This document shows positions 6,815 through 64,000 of a stretch of DNA of 64,000 bases, in pieces. The notes below the pieces were generated by a model that had not been told where the DNA came from, ran no database searches, and saw only the letters and a list, made by a program, of their open reading frames with translations. The position numbers and the translations under genes are program-made. The stretch is from Gimesia alba (GTDB taxonomy: Bacteria; Planctomycetota; Planctomycetia; Planctomycetales; Planctomycetaceae). The first letter of the stretch is position 1; each line of letters starts with the position of its first letter. Location of the stretch: contig NZ_CP036269.1 of assembly GCF_007744675.1 (NCBI RefSeq), forward strand, positions 434,001-498,000. Direction: 5' to 3'.

Positions 6815-7852
6815 ATGATTGGAAAATGGCTGCGGTTTCTATTGTGGCAGCCTTATGCACTATTCTGTCGGCGTTTTCCCTTATGGCCCTTTCGTGTGAC
6901 TGTGACGCAACCCGTGGAATATATCACCTGTATCCAGATCGATAATTTACTGACACGCCTGTTAAGCCGGTTCAGTGGAGGATACGATTACGCCGTCTGT
7001 TATCTCGTGGATGGATCACTGCTGATCGATACGGGCTTTCCCTGGGCACGTCGCAGTTTGAAACAGACACTCATCGAACTGGGAGTCGTGGATAACATCA
7101 CCACGGTCGTCAACACGCACTATCATGAAGATCATACGGGAAACAACGACCTTTTGGTCGAGCTGTGTAAAGCACAGGTGCTGGTTCATCCGGATGCGAT
7201 TCCGGAAATTCGTTTTCCCGTCGAATTGCGCTGGTATCGCAGTTTTCTATTTGGCCCGACTCAGATTGCGGATGCGAGTCCCATCGGGGCGTCAATCAAG
7301 ACAGAGCATACGCAATTTGATGTAATCGAAACGCCCGGTCATTGTCCGGGGCATATCTGTCTGTTTGAACCGGACAAAAAAATCTTATTCAGCGGAGATC
7401 TCTACATCGCCGCCGATCTGGACAGTCAATTGGGTGATGCGGATGGTCCCCAATGGATAGCCAGCCTGGAAAAGGTTTTGGCCTTAAGTCCCGAATGGCT
7501 ATTTGATGCCCATGGCACCGTTTTTGAAGGGAGCCAGGCGGTAGAACAGCAGTTACAGAGAAAACTGGAATTTCTGCTGACGATTCGCAGTCGGGTACAT
7601 CAGTTTGCGACGCACGAGCAGACGATTGAAGAATTGACTCGGAAAGTGTTCGATCGCCATAGTCTGGTTGATTTTCTGTCTTTTGGTGAAGGCTGGCTTT
7701 CCTTGATTACTGGCTCCGACTTCTCTCGGAGTAACATTGTGAAGTCCTTTCTCCGCGAAAAATTTCGTGCTGAAGCTTCCGATGAGAAGACATTCATAAA
7801 AAAAGAAGTACAGGACACAGCCATATCTTCGATGGACGCTCAACAACTCTAA
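6815..7852 (+). CDS. Metallo-beta-lactamase-fold hydrolase
   Basis: ATG 6815 has GGGGGAGAA five bases upstream and is preferred over the in-frame GTG 6800; it gives 345 residues. The zinc-binding signature is H102-Y-H104-E-D106-H107, with a later G-H-C-P-G-H (third histidine) and S-G-D (bridging aspartate), so the active site looks complete. The family covers hydroxyacylglutathione hydrolases, lactonases and many hydrolases of unknown substrate; the C-terminal helical part from ~230 does not identify one. Genes for a desaturase (upstream) and a C45-type acyltransferase (downstream, 65 bp) are on the same strand, which would fit lipid or acyl-amide chemistry, but that is inference. Confidence 0.88.
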   Translation: MIGKWLRFLLWQPYALFCRRFPLWPFRVTVTQPVEYITCIQIDNLLTRLLSRFSGGYDYAVCYLVDGSLLIDTGFPWARRSLKQTLIELGVVDNITTVVNTHYHEDHTGNNDLLVELCKAQVLVHPDAIPEIRFPVELRWYRSFLFGPTQIADASPIGASIKTEHTQFDVIETPGHCPGHICLFEPDKKILFSGDLYIAADLDSQLGDADGPQWIASLEKVLALSPEWLFDAHGTVFEGSQAVEQQLQRKLEFLLTIRSRVHQFATHEQTIEELTRKVFDRHSLVDFLSFGEGWLSLITGSDFSRSNIVKSFLREKFRAEASDEKTFIKKEVQDTAISSMDAQQL

Positions 7853-53454: not shown

Positions 53455-56400
53455 ATGAAAAATCAGAGCCAGAAGCCAAAAAAAGGAAGTTTGACAGTTT
53501 ACTTCCGATCGTTAGCTCAGATCCATGATTTGACGAAAGAGACAGCGCCTGACATAAGCAGATCTTGGATAAATACTGAGTTCTGGTTTTCAGGACTGTT
53601 GAGCCACAGTTCTAAACCAGAAGATAAACCACTAGAAAGTCCAATATCTTTCGATTCAAGTCCGCAAAAAGGCGCATGTGAATTGATTGAATTAATCTTA
53701 CGCGTTGTCGTGTATCAAGCTAGTAAATCGGATCGTCTGCCCTGCGGTAAAGCTTTGGGGGAGCTTAAGCCAAGAGAGCTTACAGACTATGCCAAACGAA
53801 TGTTTGGTTATGTCAAGTCTGAGGAATCAACGAATCCGTTGTTACTTCGACTATTCAGCTTTCACCAAGCAAAAGCGAGTTCGACAGGATATGTGGCCAG
53901 ATTTCTTGCAGATGACCTATTCGATCATACCTGTATCAGAATTCTTTCAGAAGACAAACCCGGTAAGTTTGAACCTGTAACAGCAGAGCAACTCTCTTGG
54001 TTGTTGAAGACCTATGAGTCACTCTTTCGTCGCGGTGACAGTCAGCCGATCAAAGATCCGCCACAATTTGATTCAAGTGTGGATGTCGTTCTTGAGAAGT
54101 ATTGCAAGCGGCTTCGCGAAAATTGGGAGCAGGATTGTGAGACGGACACCAAACGTGAGCAACTTTGCTTCTATGTGGAACCCCACTATTCGCTGCTGCC
54201 CCTCGGTATGCATTTTCGGGATTCTAACCCCGTGGGAGGCGATTCGGGCCAACGATTCGAGCCGGTTACTCCGCGCAGTGGAAATACGAAAGAACTGGTT
54301 GCACTGTTAAAATCTGAAGCCGGACAACGAATATGTATTGTGCAGGATTCTGGGATGGGAAAGACGATTTTTAGTCGTCGCGTGCAAGCCTATTTTTCTA
54401 CGACGGAATCTTGGAACGAATTCTACAATGGCAAAGCTTGCCTCCCCGTAAGATTTGCCACTCAAGATGCACTCGGCTGGCCTGCTGACTTTAAACGGGC
54501 GATCAGCGATGAAATTCAGTCTGACTGCGAGCGTCACGGGATCGATCCGAATCAACTGACGTCAACCCTCCTTGATGCAGGACGTGTCGTGTTGATCCTC
54601 GACGGATTTGATCAATTCGGTCCGGATGAAGTAACTGCGGCCTCTGACACTCTCAAAACGTTCCTTGCGAAAACTGGACAGCATTGTCGCGTGCTGCTTA
54701 CTAGTCGGCCATACGGGGTCGAACATGAGGTCAATCCATTATTTCTATATATAGACTGGCGTTACGCACAGATAGACCCATTTGACGTCGAGCAGCAATA
54801 TCAATATCTGACTCAGCTTCGCCCCGTTCATGACGAGCTGAAACCAATCGAGCAACTCGACCTGCCCGAGCCTGATGCAGATCTACCTGGCAGACGCGAA
54901 ACTTTGTGGAACGAGCTTTGTAAAAATAATCCCCGTATTGAACAAGTCACTTATGCACAAGCGAAGAAAATAGACGCTGAATTAGACGCTTGGTTGGACG
55001 CGACCATCGAGGAGACTCAATCAACTGAGGGGGCAACTCGCTGCGAACGATTGATTGATGGCCTCAAGAAGATCGCTCCCCAATATGACCAGATTTCAGC
55101 ATTATTTCAATCACCACTCCTACTGAAATACATTCGAAATCTTGCCGAAGACAATTTACTCGGTTCATTTGCAAATCGTTCGGAACTTTACTTGGAAGTA
55201 ATCGCTCACGAAACCAAACGAGCGTTGCCAACACTTCGATGGCGATTTAGTGAGGAGGCTCCAAATCGAATCGAAAGCATCGTGAGCGCGGCAGGCTTCC
55301 AAATGATGGTTGATGGTCGTTCGAGTAAAGGTGGCTACAGCGGTCGTGTGTGGGGGGAAAGAGAAGTCAGGAATTTTCGCAAAAATGTGTCTGCACGTCT
55401 GGCCGAGTCTGTGACTGACGAGGAATGGGAGGAAGTTGGGAAAGCGGCTGGGCTTGCGTATCGAGGAGTCATTCTGTCAAGTACACAAAGCGTTTTTGGG
55501 TTTCGGCACCGCAGTATGATGGAATTTTACTGTGGACTGTATTTAGCACAAAACGAACAGCGGGGTGGTTGGGCGTTAATCGAGCATGATAACAAGGAGA
55601 ACATCACAAAGATTGAGTGTGTCGAGCGTGAAGTATTGCTGGATCGCGCGAACGACCCAGCCTGGATGGACGCATGGCGTTTCGCCATCGAGATGCCTGC
55701 TACAATCGTGCAGTCCAATCCAAAGATTCTTTCCGCTTCTCTTTCTGTTTTATTCCTTCCGCCTAAGAATGGCGGCTCGCGACCAACCAAATTGATGTTT
55801 CAAGCTTGGCCACGATTTATAACACCCAATAAGGAAGACCAGCTACCTGGAGCAGAATTCGTTCTGAATCGTTTTCGGGGTGAATTTCAGCAACTCATGC
55901 GAATGCAGGACCAGAACCCACATCCAGGATTTACGCGGTGTCGTGGTGAAATCGCTCGTATGTTGGTGGAGAACTTTGCTCCTTGTCCGAACACAAACGA
56001 GGGTTTCGGAATCTTTCGAATGGGAGCGAGCAAGTATCAGAATGAGTTTCCGCCTCATCGTGTCCGGGTCGAAAAGTTCGAAATGCAGACGACTACGGTG
56101 ACGAGGGAGCAATACCGCTTATTCGATCCGAATCTGGAAACCATTTTTGCGCAAAGCTTCGAGCGAGTGGCTCCCAAAAATGATGAGGGCGAAGTAGCCA
56201 TTGAGTTTACCAATCATGCACCCGTTGTTTGTGTGTCGTGGTATGATGCAGTCGTTTTTTCTCGCTGGCTGGGTGGAGAGTACGCACTTCCCACCGAAAC
56301 ACAATGGGAATTCGCCTGCCGAGCGGGACATGATGATGAACGGGAATTGTTTTCTCTCGCTAACAAAACCAACGTTGAAAAAATCTCGACGAGGGAGGTC

Positions 56401-56895
56401 AACTTCGATCCGAGCAGGGACTCTGACGATTACCGTGACGATGCTGCCAACAATAAATATCGTCAGTGCACGGTTCCGGTTTCCGGAAACGGTGATCCTC
56501 TAACTGATGATTTTCTCCCGAATGCGTTTGGGCTTTGGCATATGCACGGCAACGTTTTGGAATGGTGCCAGGACAGCTACTCCCATGACTTCTACCTCGA
56601 CAGAATCATCAAGCAGCTCCAGCAACAAGAGATCATCCCTAATCACATTGTCAAGTCGGCGACTCGAGTACAAAAACTCGAAATGATCAAGACGCATGTA
56701 GACAAGATGGTTTTCACCGCCAATTTGAACGATTCCGTGGGTTCGTTGCGCGTGTTGCGTGGCGGGTCGTGGTTCAACGACGCCGACTACTGTCGGTCCG
56801 CGTACCGCAGCAGGGACGCACCCGGCAGCGGGGACGGCACGATTGGTTTTCGATTGTGCCGAGTGATTGTTCTCCCCGAGTCGTCCTCATCTTAA
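53455..56895 (+). CDS. NACHT-type NTPase with C-terminal FGE/C-type-lectin domain, DGR target protein
   Basis: The 1146 residues hold, in order: an unassigned N-terminal region (1-280), a STAND/NACHT NTPase core with P-loop D-S-G-M-G-K-T (298-304), Walker B V-L-I-L-D-G-F-D (to ~386) and L-L-T-S-R-P-Y-G, a helical middle with F-G-F-R-H-R-S-M-M-E-F-Y near 680, and from ~848 a formylglycine-generating-enzyme/sulfatase-type domain (F-R-M-G-A-S, V-C-V-S-W-Y-D-A, L-P-T-E-T-Q-W-E-F-A-C-R-A-G, L-R-V-L-R-G-G-S-W, G-F-R-L-C-R). The last ~50 codons are the variable repeat of the retroelement. By analogy with known lectin-fold DGR proteins, the diversified face should bind a changing ligand, and the NTPase would turn binding into a response, possibly defence. 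The N-terminal effector is not identified. Confidence 0.9.
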   Translation: MKNQSQKPKKGSLTVYFRSLAQIHDLTKETAPDISRSWINTEFWFSGLLSHSSKPEDKPLESPISFDSSPQKGACELIELILRVVVYQASKSDRLPCGKALGELKPRELTDYAKRMFGYVKSEESTNPLLLRLFSFHQAKASSTGYVARFLADDLFDHTCIRILSEDKPGKFEPVTAEQLSWLLKTYESLFRRGDSQPIKDPPQFDSSVDVVLEKYCKRLRENWEQDCETDTKREQLCFYVEPHYSLLPLGMHFRDSNPVGGDSGQRFEPVTPRSGNTKELVALLKSEAGQRICIVQDSGMGKTIFSRRVQAYFSTTESWNEFYNGKACLPVRFATQDALGWPADFKRAISDEIQSDCERHGIDPNQLTSTLLDAGRVVLILDGFDQFGPDEVTAASDTLKTFLAKTGQHCRVLLTSRPYGVEHEVNPLFLYIDWRYAQIDPFDVEQQYQYLTQLRPVHDELKPIEQLDLPEPDADLPGRRETLWNELCKNNPRIEQVTYAQAKKIDAELDAWLDATIEETQSTEGATRCERLIDGLKKIAPQYDQISALFQSPLLLKYIRNLAEDNLLGSFANRSELYLEVIAHETKRALPTLRWRFSEEAPNRIESIVSAAGFQMMVDGRSSKGGYSGRVWGEREVRNFRKNVSARLAESVTDEEWEEVGKAAGLAYRGVILSSTQSVFGFRHRSMMEFYCGLYLAQNEQRGGWALIEHDNKENITKIECVEREVLLDRANDPAWMDAWRFAIEMPATIVQSNPKILSASLSVLFLPPKNGGSRPTKLMFQAWPRFITPNKEDQLPGAEFVLNRFRGEFQQLMRMQDQNPHPGFTRCRGEIARMLVENFAPCPNTNEGFGIFRMGASKYQNEFPPHRVRVEKFEMQTTTVTREQYRLFDPNLETIFAQSFERVAPKNDEGEVAIEFTNHAPVVCVSWYDAVVFSRWLGGEYALPTETQWEFACRAGHDDERELFSLANKTNVEKISTREVNFDPSRDSDDYRDDAANNKYRQCTVPVSGNGDPLTDDFLPNAFGLWHMHGNVLEWCQDSYSHDFYLDRIIKQLQQQEIIPNHIVKSATRVQKLEMIKTHVDKMVFTANLNDSVGSLRVLRGGSWFNDADYCRSAYRSRDAPGSGDGTIGFRLCRVIVLPESSSS
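56735..56884 (+). repeat. Variable repeat (VR) of diversity-generating retroelement
   Basis: These 150 bp align without gaps to 57313-57462. Fifteen positions differ, and every one is an adenine in the template copy; none of the 117 non-adenine positions differs. The repeat encodes the C-terminal ~50 residues of the NACHT-FGE protein, beginning just before L-R-V-L-R-G-G-S-W. The substituted codons are mainly AAC in the template and code here for Phe, Asp, Tyr, Ser and Gly, plus ACA-to-GCA and GAC-to-GGC changes. Confidence 0.97.
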
Positions 56896-56932
56896 TGAAC
56901 TCTGTATCTCTGTACTCTGAACTCTAGGGGGT

Positions 56933-56951
56933 CTGGGGGCGAAGCCCCCAG
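56933..56951. other. GC-rich hairpin downstream of VR
   Basis: CTGGGGGC and GCCCCCAG (8 bp, perfect) enclose a GAA loop, 48 bp after the end of VR and 37 bp after the target gene stop. In the Bordetella phage retroelement an 8-bp hairpin with a short GAAA loop close to the VR is needed for efficient homing; this one is similar in stem and loop but further away. It could also be a plain terminator, though no T-run follows. Confidence 0.7.
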
Positions 56952-56964
56952 TCGCAATGCGGCC

Positions 56965-57312
56965 ATGAATGTTCCCAAGACACCACTCTTTGTCAAAACA
57001 CACGACTTTATTTTCTGGCTGTTGAAACACACCCAGCGATTTCCCAAGCATCTACGGCATAGTTACACGAATCGTCTGGAAGGTGTCGCGTTCGAGTTTG
57101 AAGAACTGATCCTGATGGCGAACACGCTGCGTGGTAAACAGCGTCAAGAATTTCTCGCACTTGCCGACGGCAAGCTACTCTGCCTACGTGGTCTGCTCCG
57201 TTATACAATTGATTTGACATTATTAGGTAGTAATCAATTTCGATTTGCGGCAGAATGTGTTGATGAGCTAGGCCGACTTCTGGGGGCCTGGCAAAAGGGG
57301 GCAGACCGCTAA
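56965..57312 (+). CDS. avd: Avd, accessory variability determinant
   Basis: The 115-residue, basic, all-helical protein fits the Avd/23S-rRNA-intervening-like four-helix bundle: T-H-D-F-I-F-W-L-L-K-H-T-Q-R-F-P-K, then R-L-E-G-V-A-F-E-F-E-E-L-I-L-M-A, L-L-C-L-R-G-L-L-R-Y-T-I-D-L and C-V-D-E-L-G-R-L-L-G-A-W. In known systems Avd forms a pentamer that binds the reverse transcriptase and template RNA and is required for mutagenic homing. It lies between VR and TR, and TR begins at the base after its stop codon. Confidence 0.9.
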   Translation: MNVPKTPLFVKTHDFIFWLLKHTQRFPKHLRHSYTNRLEGVAFEFEELILMANTLRGKQRQEFLALADGKLLCLRGLLRYTIDLTLLGSNQFRFAAECVDELGRLLGAWQKGADR

Positions 57313-57462
57313 CCGTGGGTTCGTTGCGCGTGTTGCGTGGCGGGTCGTGGAACAACAACGCCGACAACTGTCGGTCCGCGTACCGCAACAGGAACACACC
57401 CGACAACAGGAACAACACAATTGGTTTTCGATTGTGCCGAGTGATTGTTCTCCCCGAATCGT
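57313..57462 (+). repeat. Template repeat (TR) of diversity-generating retroelement
   Basis: The 150-bp template contains 33 adenines, of which nine AAC codons lie in the variable stretch; AAC can reach 15 amino acids and no stop codon when its adenines are randomised, the usual design of these elements. The repeat starts directly after the avd stop codon and is followed by a 220-bp spacer before the reverse transcriptase. The last part (from ATTGGTTTTCG on) is nearly invariant between copies and should include the IMH-like end where homing begins. Confidence 0.97.
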
Positions 57463-57613
57463 TCGTTATGCCAGATGTCGGGTCTGCTGCACCTTGGTGT
57501 GTTCTGCACGTCCGGCCTGTGCCAAGAGGACGACAGGTCTGTTTCCTGTGTACCCATCCCAAAAGAGGGTATGAGAGTGTTTCTTTTTTGGGCGACGGGG
57601 CCGAAGCCGCAGC

Positions 57614-57660
57614 GACGGGCGGGGGCTGGTAGCGTCAGCGAACGTCCCCACCCGTCTTTT
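57614..57660 (+). terminator. Hairpin with T-run between TR and reverse transcriptase gene
   Basis: GACGGG-C-GGGG (57614-57624) pairs with CCCC-A-CCCGTC (57646-57656), one mismatch, followed by TTTT. Read as a terminator it would release a short avd-TR transcript; read-through would reach the RT gene. A structural role within the TR RNA is the alternative, since the spacer after TR is needed for priming in the best-studied system. Confidence 0.6.
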
Positions 57661-57683
57661 GTTTCTATTGAAAGGTGGACACG

Positions 57684-58760
57684 GTGGCAAAATCCTACGG
57701 CAATCTCTGGCCCCAGTTCGCATCATGGGACAACTTGACACTTGCCTCTCGTCGTTGCCGCCGCCGCAAGCGATTCAAACGTGGAGCCATCGCCTTTGAC
57801 TTCGGATGGGAATCGAACTTGCTCACACTTCAACGCGAACTTGATGGTGGAACTTATGAACCCGGACCTTATCGGCATTTCTTCATACGTGATCCCAAAC
57901 CTCGCAAAATCAGTGCTGCCCCCTTCCGCGATCGGATCGTCCACCATGCGATCGTGAATGTCCTCGAACCGCTCTTTGAGCGGCGGTTCCTTCACGACAG
58001 TTATGCCTGTCGCCGAGGAAAGGGAACACATCGAGCTCTCGACCGGGCACAGCATTTTCTCCGCCGTCATTCATTTGTCCTGCAAACCGATATTCAGCGG
58101 TTCTTTCCGAACGTTGACCATGAGATACTGCTTGATTTGCTGAAGCGTACAATCGTCGATCATCGGCTACTGGACTTGGTTTCGAAAATCGTGGCTTCAG
58201 GTGAGGGCATATTCGATGATGAGACGCCTCGAACCTGGTTCCCAGGTGATAACCTATTAGATATCCTGCGTCCGACCGGACTGCCGATTGGCAATCTCAC
58301 CAGTCAGTTTTTTGCCAATGTGCTGCTCGATCCGGTCGACCACTTCATCAAGGAGCAACTCCGTATTCCGGGATATGTGCGCTACGCAGATGACCTCTTA
58401 CTATTTGCCGATGAGAAAAAAGTCCTGTGGTCGGCAGCTGAAAAAGTGGTCCGATTTCTGGCGACGCTTCGTCTTCGGTTGCATTCCCAAAAGACAGTAG
58501 TGCATGCTTCACAGCATGGCGTGAAATACCTTGGATTTCGACTGAAACCCAACGGTAGACGTTTGGCTCAACAAAGTGTCCGCCGCATGCGGTCGCGACT
58601 CCGTCAGCAACAGCGGCTTTTTTCTGCAGGGGAAATCGATTGCTGCGATGTCAGCCGCTCGTTGCAGGCATGGTTGGCACATTGCCACACCGCCAATACG
58701 ACTGGTCTGATAAATGACCTGCTGCGTGGTGTTCGTTTTCATCGCAGTCCCGGCAACTGA
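57684..58760 (+). CDS. Reverse transcriptase of diversity-generating retroelement
   Basis: GTG 57684 (a GGTGG sequence upstream; GTG 57675 is also possible) gives 358 residues. All core motifs are present: F-F-I-R-D-P-K-P-R-K-I-S, F-R-D-R-I-V-H-H-A-I-V-N, D-I-Q-R-F-F-P-N-V-D (motif A aspartate), L-P-I-G-N-L-T-S-Q (the I/L-G-x-x-x-S-Q signature of DGR enzymes in place of the Q-G of group II introns), Y-A-D-D at 234-237 and G-V-K-Y-L-G-F. No maturase or endonuclease domain follows, as expected. The enzyme copies TR RNA into cDNA with errors opposite adenine. Confidence 0.95.
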   Translation: MAKSYGNLWPQFASWDNLTLASRRCRRRKRFKRGAIAFDFGWESNLLTLQRELDGGTYEPGPYRHFFIRDPKPRKISAAPFRDRIVHHAIVNVLEPLFERRFLHDSYACRRGKGTHRALDRAQHFLRRHSFVLQTDIQRFFPNVDHEILLDLLKRTIVDHRLLDLVSKIVASGEGIFDDETPRTWFPGDNLLDILRPTGLPIGNLTSQFFANVLLDPVDHFIKEQLRIPGYVRYADDLLLFADEKKVLWSAAEKVVRFLATLRLRLHSQKTVVHASQHGVKYLGFRLKPNGRRLAQQSVRRMRSRLRQQQRLFSAGEIDCCDVSRSLQAWLAHCHTANTTGLINDLLRGVRFHRSPGN

Positions 58761-59020: not shown

Positions 59021-59218
59021 ATGACAATCCATGTTCTGGAAAAGCTTAGTTTGTGGGGGACACTCTTTGTAACCTCAACGGTCGTTGTCTGGATGTTCAA
59101 TCATAACCTGGAAGGTGCTATCGCTTCGGGAGTGACCACCGCATCGATCAAAACACCTTTTGTGTTAGTCCACCAACGTCTCTGGTTAAAGATCAAAGAA
59201 ATCATAACAAAGCAATAG
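59021..59218 (+). CDS. Small membrane protein, DUF2061-like
   Basis: ATG 59021 with GGGAG six bases upstream; 65 residues. Two hydrophobic stretches (L-W-G-T-L-F-V-T-S-T-V-V-V-W and A-I-A-S-G-V-T-T-A-S-I-K-T-P) and a final helix with H-Q-R-L-W-L-K-I-K resemble DUF2061 proteins, which often end with a H-E-R-x-W motif. It is first in a row of plus-strand genes leading to the E2/JAB/E1 genes. Its role is unknown; a membrane adaptor is possible. Confidence 0.6.
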   Translation: MTIHVLEKLSLWGTLFVTSTVVVWMFNHNLEGAIASGVTTASIKTPFVLVHQRLWLKIKEIITKQ

Positions 59219-59259
59219 CATTACTGTCTCAATATCAAACGAGAAAGGTCCAACAATCA

Positions 59260-59469
59260 ATGTACACCATTCACAGTTACCACAAAAAAGCTAAATGTGA
59301 ATACGCAGGACGTGAAGGCGAAGCGGTGGAAATATCTTCTGCCGATGGAACTATCGATCATGCGATTCTTTGTTTCCAGGAACTGCAAAAACTGCTTCGA
59401 TTTCGTCAGTCTCAAACTGAAAAGAAGAACGGTTCTGTCCCGAAAGCGAGTTCAGTTTCATCGAAGTAA
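59260..59469 (+). CDS. Hypothetical 69-residue protein in the conjugation-like operon
   Basis: The product starts with a strand-rich half (M-Y-T-I-H-S-Y-H-K-K-A-K-C-E-Y, then E-G-E-A-V-E-I-S-S-A-D-G-T-I-D-H-A) followed by a helix (F-Q-E-L-Q-K-L-L-R-F) and a disordered Lys/Ser tail. The order strand-strand-helix would allow a small beta-grasp-like fold, but there is no C-terminal Gly-Gly and no clear homology to ubiquitin-like proteins. It stands where such a protein would be expected, before the E2-like gene. Confidence 0.5.
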   Translation: MYTIHSYHKKAKCEYAGREGEAVEISSADGTIDHAILCFQELQKLLRFRQSQTEKKNGSVPKASSVSSK

Positions 59470-59549
59470 TATGTTTTACCGTCTGTGTTCAATCCCGTTG
59501 TTCGGGTTTCACTAAAACAATTTTCCTATGAAGAAGGAGTACCAAAACA

Positions 59550-59843
59550 ATGGCTGTTACCAAACATTACCGGGTCGATGGAAGTGATAACTATACCGTC
59601 ACGTACAAACAGAAATGGAATGGGACGTATGAGATTCGTTGCTCCCAACACCCGCACAATCCACAGAGCACTAACGTGAATGATTGCCATCTGTATTCCG
59701 ATGGAAGGGTTTGCGTTTCCAAAGGAAAGGAACCACGCACGCTCGATAAGGCGAAAGCGATTGGAATAGCTTTTTGTGAAGGGTACAGCCAGTACGTCCG
59801 TACTGGCAGATTTCCCAATGGCCGCAAGCGAGTAAACGTTTAA
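59550..59843 (+). CDS. Compact E2 (ubiquitin-conjugating)-like protein, tentative
   Basis: The 97 residues show the pattern of prokaryotic E2-like proteins: a strand pair (N-Y-T-V-T-Y-K and T-Y-E-I-R), an H-P-H-N-P stretch, H-L-Y-S-D-G-R-V-C-V with a candidate catalytic cysteine C55, and a C-terminal helix with F-C-E-G-Y-S-Q-Y-V-R-T-G-R-F-P. It is shorter than typical E2 proteins (about 150) and lacks the N-terminal helix. The call depends on this motif order and on the neighbours (JAMM peptidase, E1-like enzyme). AAGGAG lies ten bases before the ATG. A nucleic-acid- or zinc-binding protein is the main alternative. Confidence 0.55.
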   Translation: MAVTKHYRVDGSDNYTVTYKQKWNGTYEIRCSQHPHNPQSTNVNDCHLYSDGRVCVSKGKEPRTLDKAKAIGIAFCEGYSQYVRTGRFPNGRKRVNV

Positions 59844-60126
59844 CGGTTGTGTTTTTCTGAGGTCGTTACCACAGCGGGCTTCGTTCCAACGTTGCGATGA
59901 CGACTGGTTACCAGGTGGAACGACATTGAATGAAGGACTTCGTCATGAAATACGTTGTATTTGGTATTGAAGAACTGGAGGACGGAACTCTGCACACTGG
60001 CAGATAGAGACAGTTATGAAAGTCTATCTGTAGTGGCTGAGCATTGCCGGGGTCGATACCAAAATGATCGATCCCCGGCTTTCCCACATTTTTATTTATT
60101 CTGTCACATTTAACCGGAGAACAATC
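59844..60126. other. Spacer with a 20-codon reading frame
   Basis: Between the E2-like and JAB genes. A short frame at 59945-60007 (ATG with AAGGA upstream; M-K-Y-V-V-F-G-I-E-E-L-E-D-G-T) ends in TAG and could be a leader peptide or the stub of a lost gene, such as a ubiquitin-like protein. A second ATG frame at 60016 has five codons. Confidence 0.4.
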
Positions 60127-60801
60127 ATGTTTAGTCCCCCACTCGCTTTTCACGGCGACCTGCCTGGACTTTGGCGAAGAAACTTGGATTCGCTACAAAA
60201 TGCGTGTTGTGATGGCTTCCCTATCGGATCGGACTTCATTCAAGAAAACTCTGATCCGGAAACGCAGATTCAACCAAATCCGAAGCCTATCATTGGTCGT
60301 CGGAAGAAACGCAAAGGGAGCAAACAAGACGTAATATCAGATCTCAAAGTGACCGGCCTCGGCCCGATCCTGATAATGATTCGGTCGGTTTACCAGCAAA
60401 TTCTGGAAGATCTTGTAGAGCATCCTTTTCAGAAGGAGAAGGCCGGAATTTTACTGGGACCTACGGCAGAGGATGATCTCGTCACGCACTATGTTCCCGA
60501 CGAAAACGGTCATGCGACGTATTCTTCATTTACCCTGGATGCCGCAAGTCTCAATCGAACCCTGAGACACCGAAAAGGTGTCGGGTTGAATTGCAAAGGG
60601 GTCGTTCACGTACATCCGCCCGGAGCGTTGCACCCTTCATTTGGGGATCTGGAGTATGTCGCCAAACTGTTTGCCAATCCTAAGAACACGGAAGCAACAC
60701 AAGTGATGCTCCCGATTGTTGCCGATGGTCGACTCTATCCCTACCAGATCGATGCCAGTAATCCCCGCGAAGTCCTGGTTCCCCGCTTGATTCTGATCTG
60801 A
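60127..60801 (+). CDS. JAMM/JAB-domain metallopeptidase (deubiquitinase-like)
   Basis: ATG 60127 (GGAG seven bases upstream) gives 224 residues. The JAMM zinc site is complete: E104 in K-E-K-A-G-I-L-L-G and H161-V-H163 with S171 and D174 in the fixed H-x-H-x7-S-x2-D spacing. The N-terminal ~75 residues are basic and unassigned. JAB peptidases beside E1 and E2 genes process ubiquitin-like precursors or remove them from targets, as in bacterial Bil and type II CBASS loci. Since no ubiquitin-like substrate with a processed C-terminus is visible, its substrate is open. Confidence 0.85.
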   Translation: MFSPPLAFHGDLPGLWRRNLDSLQNACCDGFPIGSDFIQENSDPETQIQPNPKPIIGRRKKRKGSKQDVISDLKVTGLGPILIMIRSVYQQILEDLVEHPFQKEKAGILLGPTAEDDLVTHYVPDENGHATYSSFTLDAASLNRTLRHRKGVGLNCKGVVHVHPPGALHPSFGDLEYVAKLFANPKNTEATQVMLPIVADGRLYPYQIDASNPREVLVPRLILI

Positions 60802-60875
60802 CGGCATTGGCGGGTTTTATTCAGGAGCAGCGAGCAATGTTTACAACGTAGTTCATTAAAGAAAGGCATGGAACC

Positions 60876-61823
60876 ATGCAATTTGAGCGAATCAAAAATG
60901 TGATTGATATTCCAACCATCCAATCCAAGGTAGTGACAATTATCGGTGCCGGTGGATCTGCGCCACTGATTGAGAATCTCACTCGATGCGGTGTGCAACA
61001 CTGGAAGCTTGTTGACCTGGATATCATTGAAAACGCAAACATTTCTCGACAGGGGCATTCTCCGGCTGATATTGGGATGCCGAAGGTGCATGCTGTGGCT
61101 AACAAGATCTGGGAAATCAATCCTGAAGCGGTGGTGGACTGTTTTCCGGAGGACTTTACAAAACTGAGTGATGAAGAAATACGTGAATCATTCGGCAGCA
61201 GTGATCTGTTCATTTTTGCGACCGATTCCTTTGCCGCCCAATCTCGGGGTAATGAGGTTGCTCTCCTTCTAAATGCCTCGGCAATCTGGATCGGCCTGTA
61301 TCCGGGTGGTGCCGGAGGCGAAGTCGTTTTTTGGCATCCGGATCTTGAATGCTGTTTTCGCTGCCTCTGCAGTGGTCGCTATCAGGCACAACAGCAGGCT
61401 GCTCAGCAGGGGCGTTCGCTCGATCCTCCGAGTGACGGCGCAACAATTTTCGATATCCAATTGCTCGACTCCATTGCCGGTCACATTTGTCTGGGGCTTC
61501 TTACCCGAGGTTGTGAGAATCGCTTTGGGCAATTGATTGACCAGCTGGGAGACCGCCAATTTATTCAGGTCGGCATCCGTCCCGATTTTCGCATCAATGG
61601 AAAAGATGTGATCCGCAAGCATCTGGGAGTCGATGCAGAATGCCCATCGTTGTTTGCCTGGAATTCCATTGCATTGAGCGATCCGGATGAAGGGAACGCT
61701 TACTGTCCGGATTGTGAAACGTATCGTGGAATCACGTTTTCGCGTTCGGCAGAAGGAAGCTCAGGTTCTATTCGGGTGAGAACGGAGCAAGGACACCAGA
61801 AAAAATCAACGACCGTCAATTAA
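60876..61823 (+). CDS. ThiF/E1-like adenylyltransferase
   Basis: The 315-residue protein has the E1/ThiF/MoeB Rossmann fold: V-V-T-I-I-G-A-G-G-S-A (residues 19-29, nucleotide loop), D-L-D with N-I-S-R-Q (residues 48-59, acidic and arginine residues that hold ATP), and K70 in G-M-P-K-V-H-A-V. Later C-C-F-R-C-L-C and Y-C-P-D-C provide cysteines for zinc or thioester chemistry. It should adenylate the C-terminus of a small protein. It directly follows the JAB gene (74 bp), so E1, JAB and E2-like proteins are probably made together. Confidence 0.87.
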   Translation: MQFERIKNVIDIPTIQSKVVTIIGAGGSAPLIENLTRCGVQHWKLVDLDIIENANISRQGHSPADIGMPKVHAVANKIWEINPEAVVDCFPEDFTKLSDEEIRESFGSSDLFIFATDSFAAQSRGNEVALLLNASAIWIGLYPGGAGGEVVFWHPDLECCFRCLCSGRYQAQQQAAQQGRSLDPPSDGATIFDIQLLDSIAGHICLGLLTRGCENRFGQLIDQLGDRQFIQVGIRPDFRINGKDVIRKHLGVDAECPSLFAWNSIALSDPDEGNAYCPDCETYRGITFSRSAEGSSGSIRVRTEQGHQKKSTTVN

Positions 61824-61875: not shown

Positions 61876-62550
61876 ATGGAAATACTTCTGATACTTGTGG
61901 TATTGGCTGGTGGGGGCTGGTGGCTGTGTAAGCGGTTCTATCGCGTGATCCGGTCTGCTCACAGGCAGAACCTATGGCAACGACAGAACGATGCAGTTTC
62001 AGTGGGACGCCAGCAACAGCAGCAGAGGCAAATGTATGAACGTCGCCGTCGGCAACAAGCGCTCAATCAAAAATATCGTGCACTCCAGGTCGCTTTATTG
62101 CAGCTGGATCAGGCTCCTGATTTTCAGCGGGCGGCCTCTCGGGCGGAGGCCGCCAGTGAGGTTCCACTGGCTTTGCGGCAAAGGCAGTATCGTCGCTTTC
62201 GGCAAAAACTGGTCAGACATTTCGTACGCCGTCTGCGGATGGGTACTGAGACCCAGGTTCTGCTCGATTCTCTCACGGTATTGGTCGAGGCACTGGGCGT
62301 TGCCGGTTTTGAGGCGAGTTATATTGAACAGGCAGCTTCGCGGCAGTTGCAAAACAGAACCATGAGACCAGCAGAAAATTTCTCTGCCACGTTAGAGCGA
62401 GTGCAGCGGGAGCATGCTGACCGGAAGGCTGCGCTGAATCAGGCGAGCCTGGATCCGGATACAAAGCAGCAATTACAGGAAGCACAGGACCAGCAATTAG
62501 TGGAATCCTTGATGGAAATGACGCTTGGTAATCGAGGAGAAGAGACATGA
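61876..62550 (+). CDS. Single-pass membrane protein with Gln/Arg-rich coiled coil
   Basis: ATG 61876 follows AAGGGGGG by nine bases; 224 residues. A membrane anchor (residues 2-19, I-L-L-I-L-V-V-L-A-G-G-G-W-W) is followed by a long basic, Gln-rich helix and a second helical half. No domain is recognised. It overlaps the next gene (ATPase) by ATGA, so the two form one unit; the anchor may hold the ATPase at the membrane in the way VirD4-type proteins hold their own. Confidence 0.65.
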   Translation: MEILLILVVLAGGGWWLCKRFYRVIRSAHRQNLWQRQNDAVSVGRQQQQQRQMYERRRRQQALNQKYRALQVALLQLDQAPDFQRAASRAEAASEVPLALRQRQYRRFRQKLVRHFVRRLRMGTETQVLLDSLTVLVEALGVAGFEASYIEQAASRQLQNRTMRPAENFSATLERVQREHADRKAALNQASLDPDTKQQLQEAQDQQLVESLMEMTLGNRGEET

Positions 62551-64000
62551 ACCAGCTTTCCAGAACTATCAGACCGAAGCGACTATCCCGAACCAGACGG
62601 CATTCGTTTTTCTCGTCGAAACAGCTTTTTGCTGAGAGTCAGGCGGGAATCTTCATCTCCGGCGACTCCGGTTTCGGAAAGAGCAATGCGATGAAAGTGC
62701 TGATGCAGCTCCTGGCGATCTTGGGATATGGCTTTCTGTTCATAAGCCCGCACGGTTCTGATCCGAGAGACATACTGAGTTGGTGTATGGCTCAGAAAGC
62801 ATCGATCCGCAACCGGGTCGTGTATATCGATCCGGCTGAGACATCGCGTACGACCTGTATCAATCCCCTCGCAGTCGAATCGACCCGTGACCCGATCCAA
62901 TACCGCGCTCGGCTGGTCAGTAAAATCGGGCATGTTTGCCGGATTCTGCTCTCTGCCTGGGGAGAGGAAGATTTTGACAGTCGTCCCCGCCTCTTTACCT
63001 GGACAATGAGAATTTTGAAGACGCTTGCAGAACTCGGTTTACCTCTGGCGGATGCAAAGCATTTTCTGGATGTTGGTTCTGATGTCTACAATGCTCTGGT
63101 ACAAGCGGTCCCCGATGTCATGGCACGGCACTTCTTTGAGAATCTGGCCGCCGGTCGTCCGCAAGATATCCGGGAAGAGATCGAATCGACGCGCAACCGC
63201 ATCCTGGGGTTTTTCAGTAATCCGATTATCGAAGCCATGCTTTCCCGGACGAGCGGGGTACTCGATTTTGGACAGCTGCGACGAAAAAACGCCATCGTGA
63301 TTGTCAATCTCAGACAAGGGGGCGTTTTGCGGGAGGAAGATCAGCAAATATTAGCTAATTTATTTCTGGCCGAGTTATTACACGACGTTTTTAATAGTGA
63401 TACTCCTACTCCGTACTTTGCCTTTCTGGATGAGCTTCCCGTCTTTGCCAGGGGATCAGGACCGGAACTGACTGCTGCAGCCGGCCAAATCCGCAAGTTT
63501 TTATTACGTCTGGTTTGTGCCACGCAAGGGGCGAATCCGTTTCCGGATCGTGTGGATGATCGTTTACTAAATGCCTTGATTGGGCAGTGTGGTCTACATT
63601 TTCTATTTCGCCATAAGCATCCGTATGATGCGAAGTTTTTCGGCGAGATCATCGGGTTCCCAACCTATGATCCTCAGCGAGTGAAACATCAGACTGTGCA
63701 GTCGCAGCAGTATCAGGCGGGCCATGATTTAGTCACCCTGATGGATTTCAGTGAAAGTGAGTCGGAAACCAGGGGAACGGGAGGCTCTGAATCAAACGGT
63801 GTTACGGAGACCGAGCAGTGGAGTGATACCCAGAGCCATTCGGTGGGTTCATCCACCAGTCATTCGGAATCAAGCTCGCAAACAACGGGAACCAGTCAGA
63901 ATCCCTACAACACACAATTGCAACAGATACGACAGGCGGTCAGTGATGCCCGATCTTCGACAGCAGGGCAATCTGAAAACCGTACCGATGGTCGTTCTTC
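62547..64000 (+). CDS. VirD4/TraG-like conjugation ATPase (3' end outside window)
   Basis: From ATG 62547 the frame is open to the window edge (484 codons seen). The P-loop is G-D-S-G-F-G-K-S-N in I-F-I-S-G-D-S-G-F-G (about residues 37-45), a G-S-D-P-R-D motif follows, and Walker B is Y-F-A-F-L-D-E-L-P-V-F-A near 290, with L-V-C-A-T-Q-G as sensor. Together these fit the type IV secretion DNA-translocating ATPase family. From ~400 the sequence is low-complexity Ser/Thr/Glu/Gln. It lacks its own membrane helices, which the upstream gene may supply. It is the second such ATPase in the element. Confidence 0.82.
   Translation, partial: MNQLSRTIRPKRLSRTRRHSFFSSKQLFAESQAGIFISGDSGFGKSNAMKVLMQLLAILGYGFLFISPHGSDPRDILSWCMAQKASIRNRVVYIDPAETSRTTCINPLAVESTRDPIQYRARLVSKIGHVCRILLSAWGEEDFDSRPRLFTWTMRILKTLAELGLPLADAKHFLDVGSDVYNALVQAVPDVMARHFFENLAAGRPQDIREEIESTRNRILGFFSNPIIEAMLSRTSGVLDFGQLRRKNAIVIVNLRQGGVLREEDQQILANLFLAELLHDVFNSDTPTPYFAFLDELPVFARGSGPELTAAAGQIRKFLLRLVCATQGANPFPDRVDDRLLNALIGQCGLHFLFRHKHPYDAKFFGEIIGFPTYDPQRVKHQTVQSQQYQAGHDLVTLMDFSESESETRGTGGSESNGVTETEQWSDTQSHSVGSSTSHSESSSQTTGTSQNPYNTQLQQIRQAVSDARSSTAGQSENRTDGRS

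Follow-up and report, generated by a model that had tools for sequence, protein, structure and literature searches.

To our knowledge, the established view is that cascades of an activating enzyme (E1) and a conjugating enzyme (E2) act on folded beta-grasp modifiers. Small modifiers without a folded beta-grasp domain are found in Pup and UBact, of which Pup, with ~60-70 residues, is ligated by a glutamine-synthetase-like enzyme and not by an E1 and E2; the microcin C system of MccB and MccA has, as far as we know, neither an E2 nor a JAMM protease. Here we describe a locus of Gimesia alba lying in a stretch of 64,000 nucleotides (the window; positions 434001-498000 of the 7.77 Mb contig NZ_CP036269.1), which encodes an E2-like protein, a JAMM/JAB protease and a ThiF/E1-like adenylyltransferase, with a 20-residue open reading frame (ORF) in the gap between the E2-like and JAMM genes. 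A preliminary description of this DNA had omitted that ORF (59945-60007) from its gene list; as the peptide is tiny, the candidate modifier was overlooked. On balance, and with some reserve, we favor the view that the module is a ubiquitin-like conjugation system with a short peptide, and not a beta-grasp protein, as its modifier.

The closest treatment in the literature searched is a 2006 survey, in whose types 6a-6e an E1, an E2-like protein and a JAB are likewise encoded together, often on mobile DNA, type 6e also sharing with some of our loci a JAB-E1 fusion and resembling them in its tandem modifier domains (PMC1779556). The differences are that 1) types 6a-6c fuse the E2 with the E1, whereas the E2-like protein here is separate; 2) types 6d and 6e carry beta-grasp proteins, whereas the candidate modifier here is a peptide; 3) type 6d has a ubiquitin-like protein and an E2 without the classical His, whereas here no ubiquitin-like protein was found and the His is present (PMC1779556). 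BilABCD is similar in combining E1, E2 and JAB with a precursor trimmed by the JAB, but BilA is a two-domain ubiquitin-like protein and BilD has two adenylation domains, in contrast to the single 315-residue chain of the E1 here (PMC11354881); no BilA-like two-domain protein was seen when ORFs and proteins near the trio were scanned. In type II CBASS (cyclic oligonucleotide-based antiphage signaling system), the E1, E2 and JAB of Cap2/Cap3 conjugate a non-ubiquitin protein, cGAS being a known exception to the beta-grasp rule, but Cap2 is an E1-E2 fusion and the conjugated end is Gly or Ala, whereas here the genes are separate and no CD-NTase (cGAS/DncV-like nucleotidyltransferase) occurs among the neighbors scanned (PMC10097602). 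MccB is comparable in being a ThiF-like enzyme that targets the C-terminal end of a short, ribosomally made peptide, but it makes a phosphoramidate at a C-terminal Asn, unlike what we propose (PMC12250964). The PRTRC ThiF model scored 24 bits on the E1, under its cut-off of 144.75. Altogether the set resembles the type 6a-6e operons, Bil and CBASS but lacks defining features of each. The preliminary description had suggested a variant of E1-E2-JAMM systems devoid of a CD-NTase and of a beta-grasp modifier, which fits the evidence, with neither family matched among the trio and neighboring proteins scanned. Titles and abstracts of open-licence papers, preprints being outside the scope, yielded none describing a peptide modifier together with E1, E2 and JAB, which is weak evidence of absence.

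Relatives were found with the E2-like protein or its profile, and their neighborhoods then fetched. The single sequence matched 10 of the 170 genomes of the order and the profile 12; in the class 13 of 397 genomes matched, and in the phylum the single sequence matched 3 of 392, all of one genus, with another E2-like search matching 5 of 392. Two kinds of module were recognized. In the first kind (n = 11 loci: the window, L014, L032 to L039 and L056), genes for the E2-like protein, JAMM, E1, a ~220-residue membrane protein and a HerA/VirD4-like ATPase form one block, which recurs in related genomes. In the second kind the JAMM and E1 are fused (L041, L057, L058, L060, L061, L084 and a rearranged region of genome G031 comprising L040, L059 and L086). 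A more remote locus, L085 of genome G418, has an E2-like domain within a protein of 198 residues, whose neighbors are ThiF and Prok-JAB proteins.

In all 11 first-kind loci a short ORF near the E2-like gene encodes the core G-[IV]-E-E-[LIV]-x-x-G-T-L-H, positioned in the gap between the E2-like and JAMM genes in ten of them and between two E2-like genes in L039. The peptides are ~17-33 residues long (a later ATG would give 12 in L036 and L039). They end exactly at the His in four loci and carry 1-3 further residues in the other seven (TGR in the window and likewise in L032, its near twin; otherwise A, SDN, RD, QPQ or R), so that the residues past the His vary while the sequence up to it is kept, as in trimmed precursors of ubiquitin-like proteins. 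Two of the 11 loci, L014 and L056, encode two units in tandem. By functional analogy, the peptide thus has the trait of such precursors, i.e. a conserved C-terminus with a variable extension, or tandem units. Among fused-kind loci, five have one to four units of a P-x-G-[TG]-F-[HR]-like form near the E2-like gene, which the peptide here precedes: L059 of G031 (one WRDVVPEGTFH and three GEDVVPPGTFH, followed by AG) and L041 have four each, L084 has two, L060 two clear ones and L061 a single one. Counting G031 once, clear peptides are present in 16 of 19 E2-like loci (11/11 of the first kind, 5/7 of the second and 0/1 for L085). The peptide hypothesis had been set after four first-kind and four fused-type loci; all seven remaining first-kind loci, examined afterwards, carried the peptide, and L084, found later still, has its two units. 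The proposals that the modifier is encoded elsewhere or has been lost are, respectively, not needed and contradicted, given a conserved peptide gene in 11/11 loci.

Dinucleotide shuffling of the 11 intergenic regions (22,000 shuffles) never produced the core and produced a loose form of it twice. A nucleotide pattern encoding EEL..GTLH, with F allowed in place of L, matched 11 times in the 170 genomes (backward control, 0); nine of these matches fall in eight of the modules, two being the units of L014, and two lie inside longer open frames elsewhere, out of frame in G042 and in frame in G089, both frames looking like peptidases. Within the window the only match to the peptide pattern is the peptide gene, with none in 100 shuffles, and the loose motif has no match in four other ThiF/JAB loci of the source genome (L008, L009, L015 and L016). 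Pooled over 13 units, the proportion of synonymous differences (pS) is 0.78 and that of nonsynonymous differences (pN) 0.16, or 0.80 and 0.07 when two variable codons are removed, with pN biased low because the units were excised using the motif itself. Free of that bias are the presence of a motif ORF in every first-kind locus, these loci having been chosen by the E2-like protein, and the saturation of synonymous sites. The paired units differ at 8 of 33 nucleotides in L014 and 7 of 33 in L056, with no residue change; units identical in residues differ at 3-8 of 33 nucleotides in L059 and 5-9 of 33 in L041 (the first unit of each array, which differs in residues, being excluded), whereas the units of L084 differ in residues and those of L060 by 9 of 42 nucleotides and one residue. 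The peptide gene is conserved at the level of its protein and is linked to the trio, and the 20-residue product is probably the tag attached by the E1, E2-like and JAMM set.

The enzymes retain their catalytic residues. In an alignment of 16 sequences (11 first-kind and five fused, L059 and L084 being left out), the Glu, first His, Ser and Asp of the JAMM are kept in all 16 and the second His in 15; in the JAMM of the window the zinc site (E, HxH, S, D) is in place, as the preliminary description had stated. Prok-JAB stays just below its cut-off of 25 bits on the protein and reaches 25 as a genome match; the only match of the JAMM to the PDB was one designed protein (0.033). Its start, given earlier as 60064, is most likely 60127, where the ATG follows a GGAG and is common to paralogues, position 60064 lying within a hairpin. 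The E1, whose identification stands (Table 1), has MoeB, UBA5, ThiF and Cap2 as its nearest solved chains and keeps the GxG, D-x-D, N, Q and Lys positions as well as two CxxC pairs, with the Arg of N..RQ present in 11/11 first-kind sequences. No invariant cysteine was found in the 16 sequences beyond the two CxxC pairs, which are of zinc-site type; since the E1 lacks an invariant catalytic Cys of its own, we surmise that the peptide would be handed directly to the Cys of the E2-like protein.

For the 97-residue protein we retain the label E2-like because the evidence for its fold is weak. Neither Pfam, NCBIfam nor PADLOC gave a family match, a Pfam scan of 17 members returned nothing relevant, and the profile found no E2 in the PDB, only two unrelated matches at E 0.6. 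The E2 trait of a catalytic-type Cys with an upstream His is present: the His occurs in 17/17 homologues, and the Cys, on whose conservation the preliminary description had staked its assignment, is kept in 12 of 13 first-kind copies. The exception is a Ser in the second copy of L039, where the first copy is intact; 4/4 remote sequences have a Cys close to the site. The Cys stands 8-13 residues past the conserved His, against 10 in a RAD6-like chain. Aligned by hhalign to one UBC sequence, the protein scored 24.0, with its Cys falling on the catalytic Cys; 57 other proteins from these loci reached at most 19.9. A UBC fold is, on these data, at most weakly supported.

Table 1. Features of the module and its surroundings in the window.
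Feature	Coordinates	Strand	Evidence
DUF2061-like small membrane protein	59021..59218	+	17.9 bits, Pfam cut-off 23.1
69-residue protein	59260..59469	+	6/11 loci; no Pfam match
97-residue E2-like protein, His47 and Cys55	59550..59843	+	His 17/17; Cys 12/13 close copies
Peptide gene MKYVVFGIEELEDGTLHTGR, proposed modifier precursor	59945..60007	+	AAGGA before ATG; core in 11/11 loci
Hairpin 3' of peptide gene, possible attenuator or terminator	60046..60079	+	-19.8 kcal/mol
JAMM/JAB protease, 224 residues	60127..60801	+	Prok-JAB 23.4 bits; E, HxH, S, D aligned
ThiF/E1-like adenylyltransferase, 315 residues	60876..61823	+	Pfam ThiF 89.2 bits, cut-off 28.1
224-residue protein, N-terminal hydrophobic stretch	61876..62550	+	tblastn linkage 11/11 loci; no Pfam match
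HerA/VirD4-like ATPase	62547..64000	+	Continues beyond window end

We postulate the following scheme. A precursor of ~17-33 residues, in some relatives made of tandem ~11-residue units like polyubiquitin, would be trimmed or divided into units by the JAMM after the invariant His of G-T-L-H, a site we prefer because conservation stops exactly there; the E1 would then adenylate the freed C-terminus and probably load the peptide directly onto the Cys of its E2-like partner; the latter would attach the peptide to amino groups on targets, and the JAMM could reverse the conjugation. Precedents for single steps exist, in that the ThiF-like MccB attaches AMP to a seven-residue peptide (PMC12250964), the JAB Cap3 cuts a tandem cGAS fusion (PMC10097602) and BilC trims BilA (PMC11354881). 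A possible reader of the tag is the linked ATPase (HerA/VirD4-like here, ClpB-like AAA+ in three distant loci); as the block travels with an ATPase that is coupling-protein-like or, in those three loci, ClpB-like, this is the simplest idea. We infer the trimming site, the adenylation, the E2 transfer, the targets, the reader and the biological purpose. That the module is a categorically new tagging system, whose tag, a His-ending peptide of ~11 residues, sometimes arrayed in polyubiquitin-like fashion, is handled by an E1, a minimal E2 and a JAMM and directs proteins to the linked ATPase, is a more ambitious proposal which we put forward only tentatively.

Several points weigh against a peptide modifier: 1) most known ubiquitin-like proteins need a C-terminal Gly, whereas the proposed peptide would end in His, and G-T-L-H could also be cut after its Gly; 2) L057 and L058 have just a degenerate GTWY/GTWH array in a poorly delimited ORF, and a motif scan of the related E2-E1-JAB locus L085 found no such peptide; 3) among fused-kind sequences, none of the five E1s aligned has the Arg of N..RQ, one JAMM has HxQ, and the Cys of the E2-like protein lies two columns further on in 4/4 sequences; 4) against a three-sequence UBC profile the E2-like protein scored 18.9-21.1, the best decoy reaching 19.2, and its single-sequence model was poor, with a mean predicted local distance difference test (pLDDT) of 48, five strands and no N-terminal helix; 5) the pN value carries the bias described above, and the case as a whole is built on sequence evidence. 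As to the first point, the conjugated C-terminus of cGAS in CBASS is Gly or Ala (PMC10097602).

The fourth of these points bears on an alternative that overlaps with our preferred reading, namely that the 97-residue protein is another kind of Cys protein, e.g. a peptide ligase or carrier, with the rest of the scheme unchanged. Its weak profile similarity, the lack of a confident fold and the poor model without an N-terminal helix would agree with this, but the spacing of the Cys past the conserved His, a range that includes the value of the RAD6-like chain, and the recurrence of the domain beside ThiF and Prok-JAB proteins in L085 speak for an E2, and we regard the alternative as doubtful, if worth keeping in mind.

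The chief rival is a pathway for a ribosomally synthesized and post-translationally modified peptide (RiPP), where the E1-like enzyme would activate the C-terminus of the precursor, the JAMM would serve as leader or unit protease and the E2-like protein would transfer the peptide to a small molecule or close a ring, the product being a secreted or signaling peptide. RiPP precursors with repeated core units are known. ThiF-like enzymes do modify short precursor peptides (PMC12250964). However, the genes recurring with the peptide encode two proteins of conjugation pathways, a JAMM and a Cys protein of E2-like type, together with a DNA-pump-like ATPase; no other tailoring enzyme was recognized; and the excerpts of a review on ThiF enzymes in RiPP pathways contain neither the term JAB nor E2-like (PMC12250964). 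For these reasons we hold a RiPP pathway to be unlikely.

Less likely still is that the true modifier of the trio is a beta-grasp protein provided in trans, with the peptide acting as a regulator, substrate or inhibitor. In the same genome, L016:1-7224 does contain a gene for a YukD-like ubiquitin-like protein (6952-7224) that neighbors E1 and JAB genes and is followed on that strand, after ~4 kb, by a UQ_con-type E2 truncated at the end of the locus; but an E1, an E2 and a JAB already belong to this cluster, the peptide accompanies the trio in 11/11 loci across two families, and it would be difficult to see why a regulator should be duplicated in tandem.

Downstream of the peptide stop, within 110 nucleotides, a stable hairpin is present in 11/11 loci (-18.5 to -30.5 kcal/mol), more stable than at least 94 of 100 shuffles in each; in a control unmatched for base composition and operon position, 35 of 138 stretches 3' of other genes in these loci reached -17.9 kcal/mol. 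A generic terminator scan did not report the hairpin of the window, probably for want of a T-run, and an Rfam comparison at the locus gave no match. The hairpin could yield peptide in excess over the enzymes. That the ORF is instead a translated leader controlling downstream genes via this hairpin is very improbable, constant as the hairpin is, because the residue sequence is kept despite saturated synonymous sites, duplicated units stay in frame and the peptide precedes the E2-like gene in the fused kind.

The preliminary description had named the 69-residue product as a possible conjugated protein. We consider this unlikely: it occurs in 6/11 loci only, and its C-terminus is conserved no further than the near-identical copy in L032. 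The protein, encoded directly 5' of the E2-like gene, has common GEAVEI-like and EL.KLLRFR-like motifs, the copy in L034 being the most diverged. As for the DUF2061-like protein, the gene exists, with a Pfam score under the cut-off; it is probably cargo.

Additional observations concern the E2-like genes and related clusters. Tandem pairs of E2-like genes are found at L036:3581-4293 and L039:9079-10044, the second copies of both bearing an N-terminal hydrophobic stretch; the Ser that replaces Cys in the second copy of L039 recalls an inactive E2 partner. In G031, an E2-like frame with one in-frame TGA (L059:6219-6482) lies ~1 kb past the four-unit peptide array and looks like a decaying copy, an intact E2-like gene being present ~10 kb off. 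A contig scan of the source genome with the E2-like protein gave two short matches, L018 and L019, of which L018 was rejected as a relative since it falls inside an apparent AMP-binding enzyme. Adjoining the fused-type module, L057:3662-5870 and L058:12615-14729 encode, besides a Prok-E2_E protein and a protein of 81-85 residues, a ThiF protein whose JAB match is below threshold (Pfam basis from L057 only), i.e. a second ubiquitin-like system close by. The cluster at L015:5628-11078 combines a ThiF protein with an ATPase that matches FtsK weakly and with a 120-residue protein of E2-like appearance (PHTFGCGELCIY), for which neither Pfam nor the PDB gave a match; the modifier of that cluster could be a 69-residue protein whose C-terminus reads WVFG. 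A Prok-E2_B search of 118 genomes gave one locus. Viral contigs held no relative of the E1, JAMM-E1 or E2-like protein, and plasmids and phages gave partial ThiF matches only (E1, six plasmid and one phage records; JAMM-E1, five plasmid records).

The preliminary description implied a plasmid setting; with a contig of 7.77 Mb the locus is probably chromosomal instead, though inside an integrase-bearing element. A second copy of the block, identical in gene order and with E2-like proteins 78% identical, lies at 7.47 Mb of the same contig (L014), and the trio sits in one of two paralogous, mobile-element-like copies. The window ATPase is 83% identical over 485 residues to its paralogue L014:9497-11398, which has HerA and type IV secretion coupling-protein matches, all under Pfam cut-offs; in L041 and L058 the gene after the module encodes a ClpB-like AAA+ protein, and L057 matches L058 in layout and protein length. 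Past the window end follow a Replic_Relax protein and a tyrosine recombinase. A Replic_Relax/HTH gene was seen by similarity in 9/11 first-kind loci, L037 and L038 being the exceptions. A search around the integrase for flanking att repeats and tRNAs gave nothing convincing and no tRNA. The frame after the Replic_Relax gene (L014:12319-13272, L032:13080-14054 and L033:12845-13819, 87-88% identical among these three; listed also at L017:1372-2346, and clustering with frames in L034 and L038) looks non-coding and is possibly a conserved replication or transfer site.

Upstream of the block, several loci encode STAND-type nucleoside triphosphatases (NTPases): NACHT is above its cut-off in the window and L014 and just below it in L039, and L056 has a sub-cut-off NB-ARC/AAA_16-like match. 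In the window, 53455-58760 is a diversity-generating retroelement with a NACHT-FGE protein as its target, the last 150 bp of which (the variable region) are 90% identical to the template repeat 57313-57462, with changes at template adenines; a bAvd-like protein (56965-57312) and a reverse transcriptase (57675-58760) complete it, and a second copy with its own NACHT-FGE target precedes the paralogous module in L014. As STAND-type NTPases stand upstream in several loci, a role of the module in conflict among mobile elements, phages and hosts is plausible.

If our reading is true, the module would be among the smallest protein-tagging systems proposed, and an E1-E2 cascade would need no beta-grasp modifier. 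A tandemly encoded peptide modifier would link peptide adenylation of the MccB type with ubiquitin-like conjugation and could offer biotechnology a very small covalent tag. Other bacterial E1-E2-JAB operons that seem to lack a ubiquitin-like protein would then be worth re-reading for tiny ORFs skipped by gene callers.

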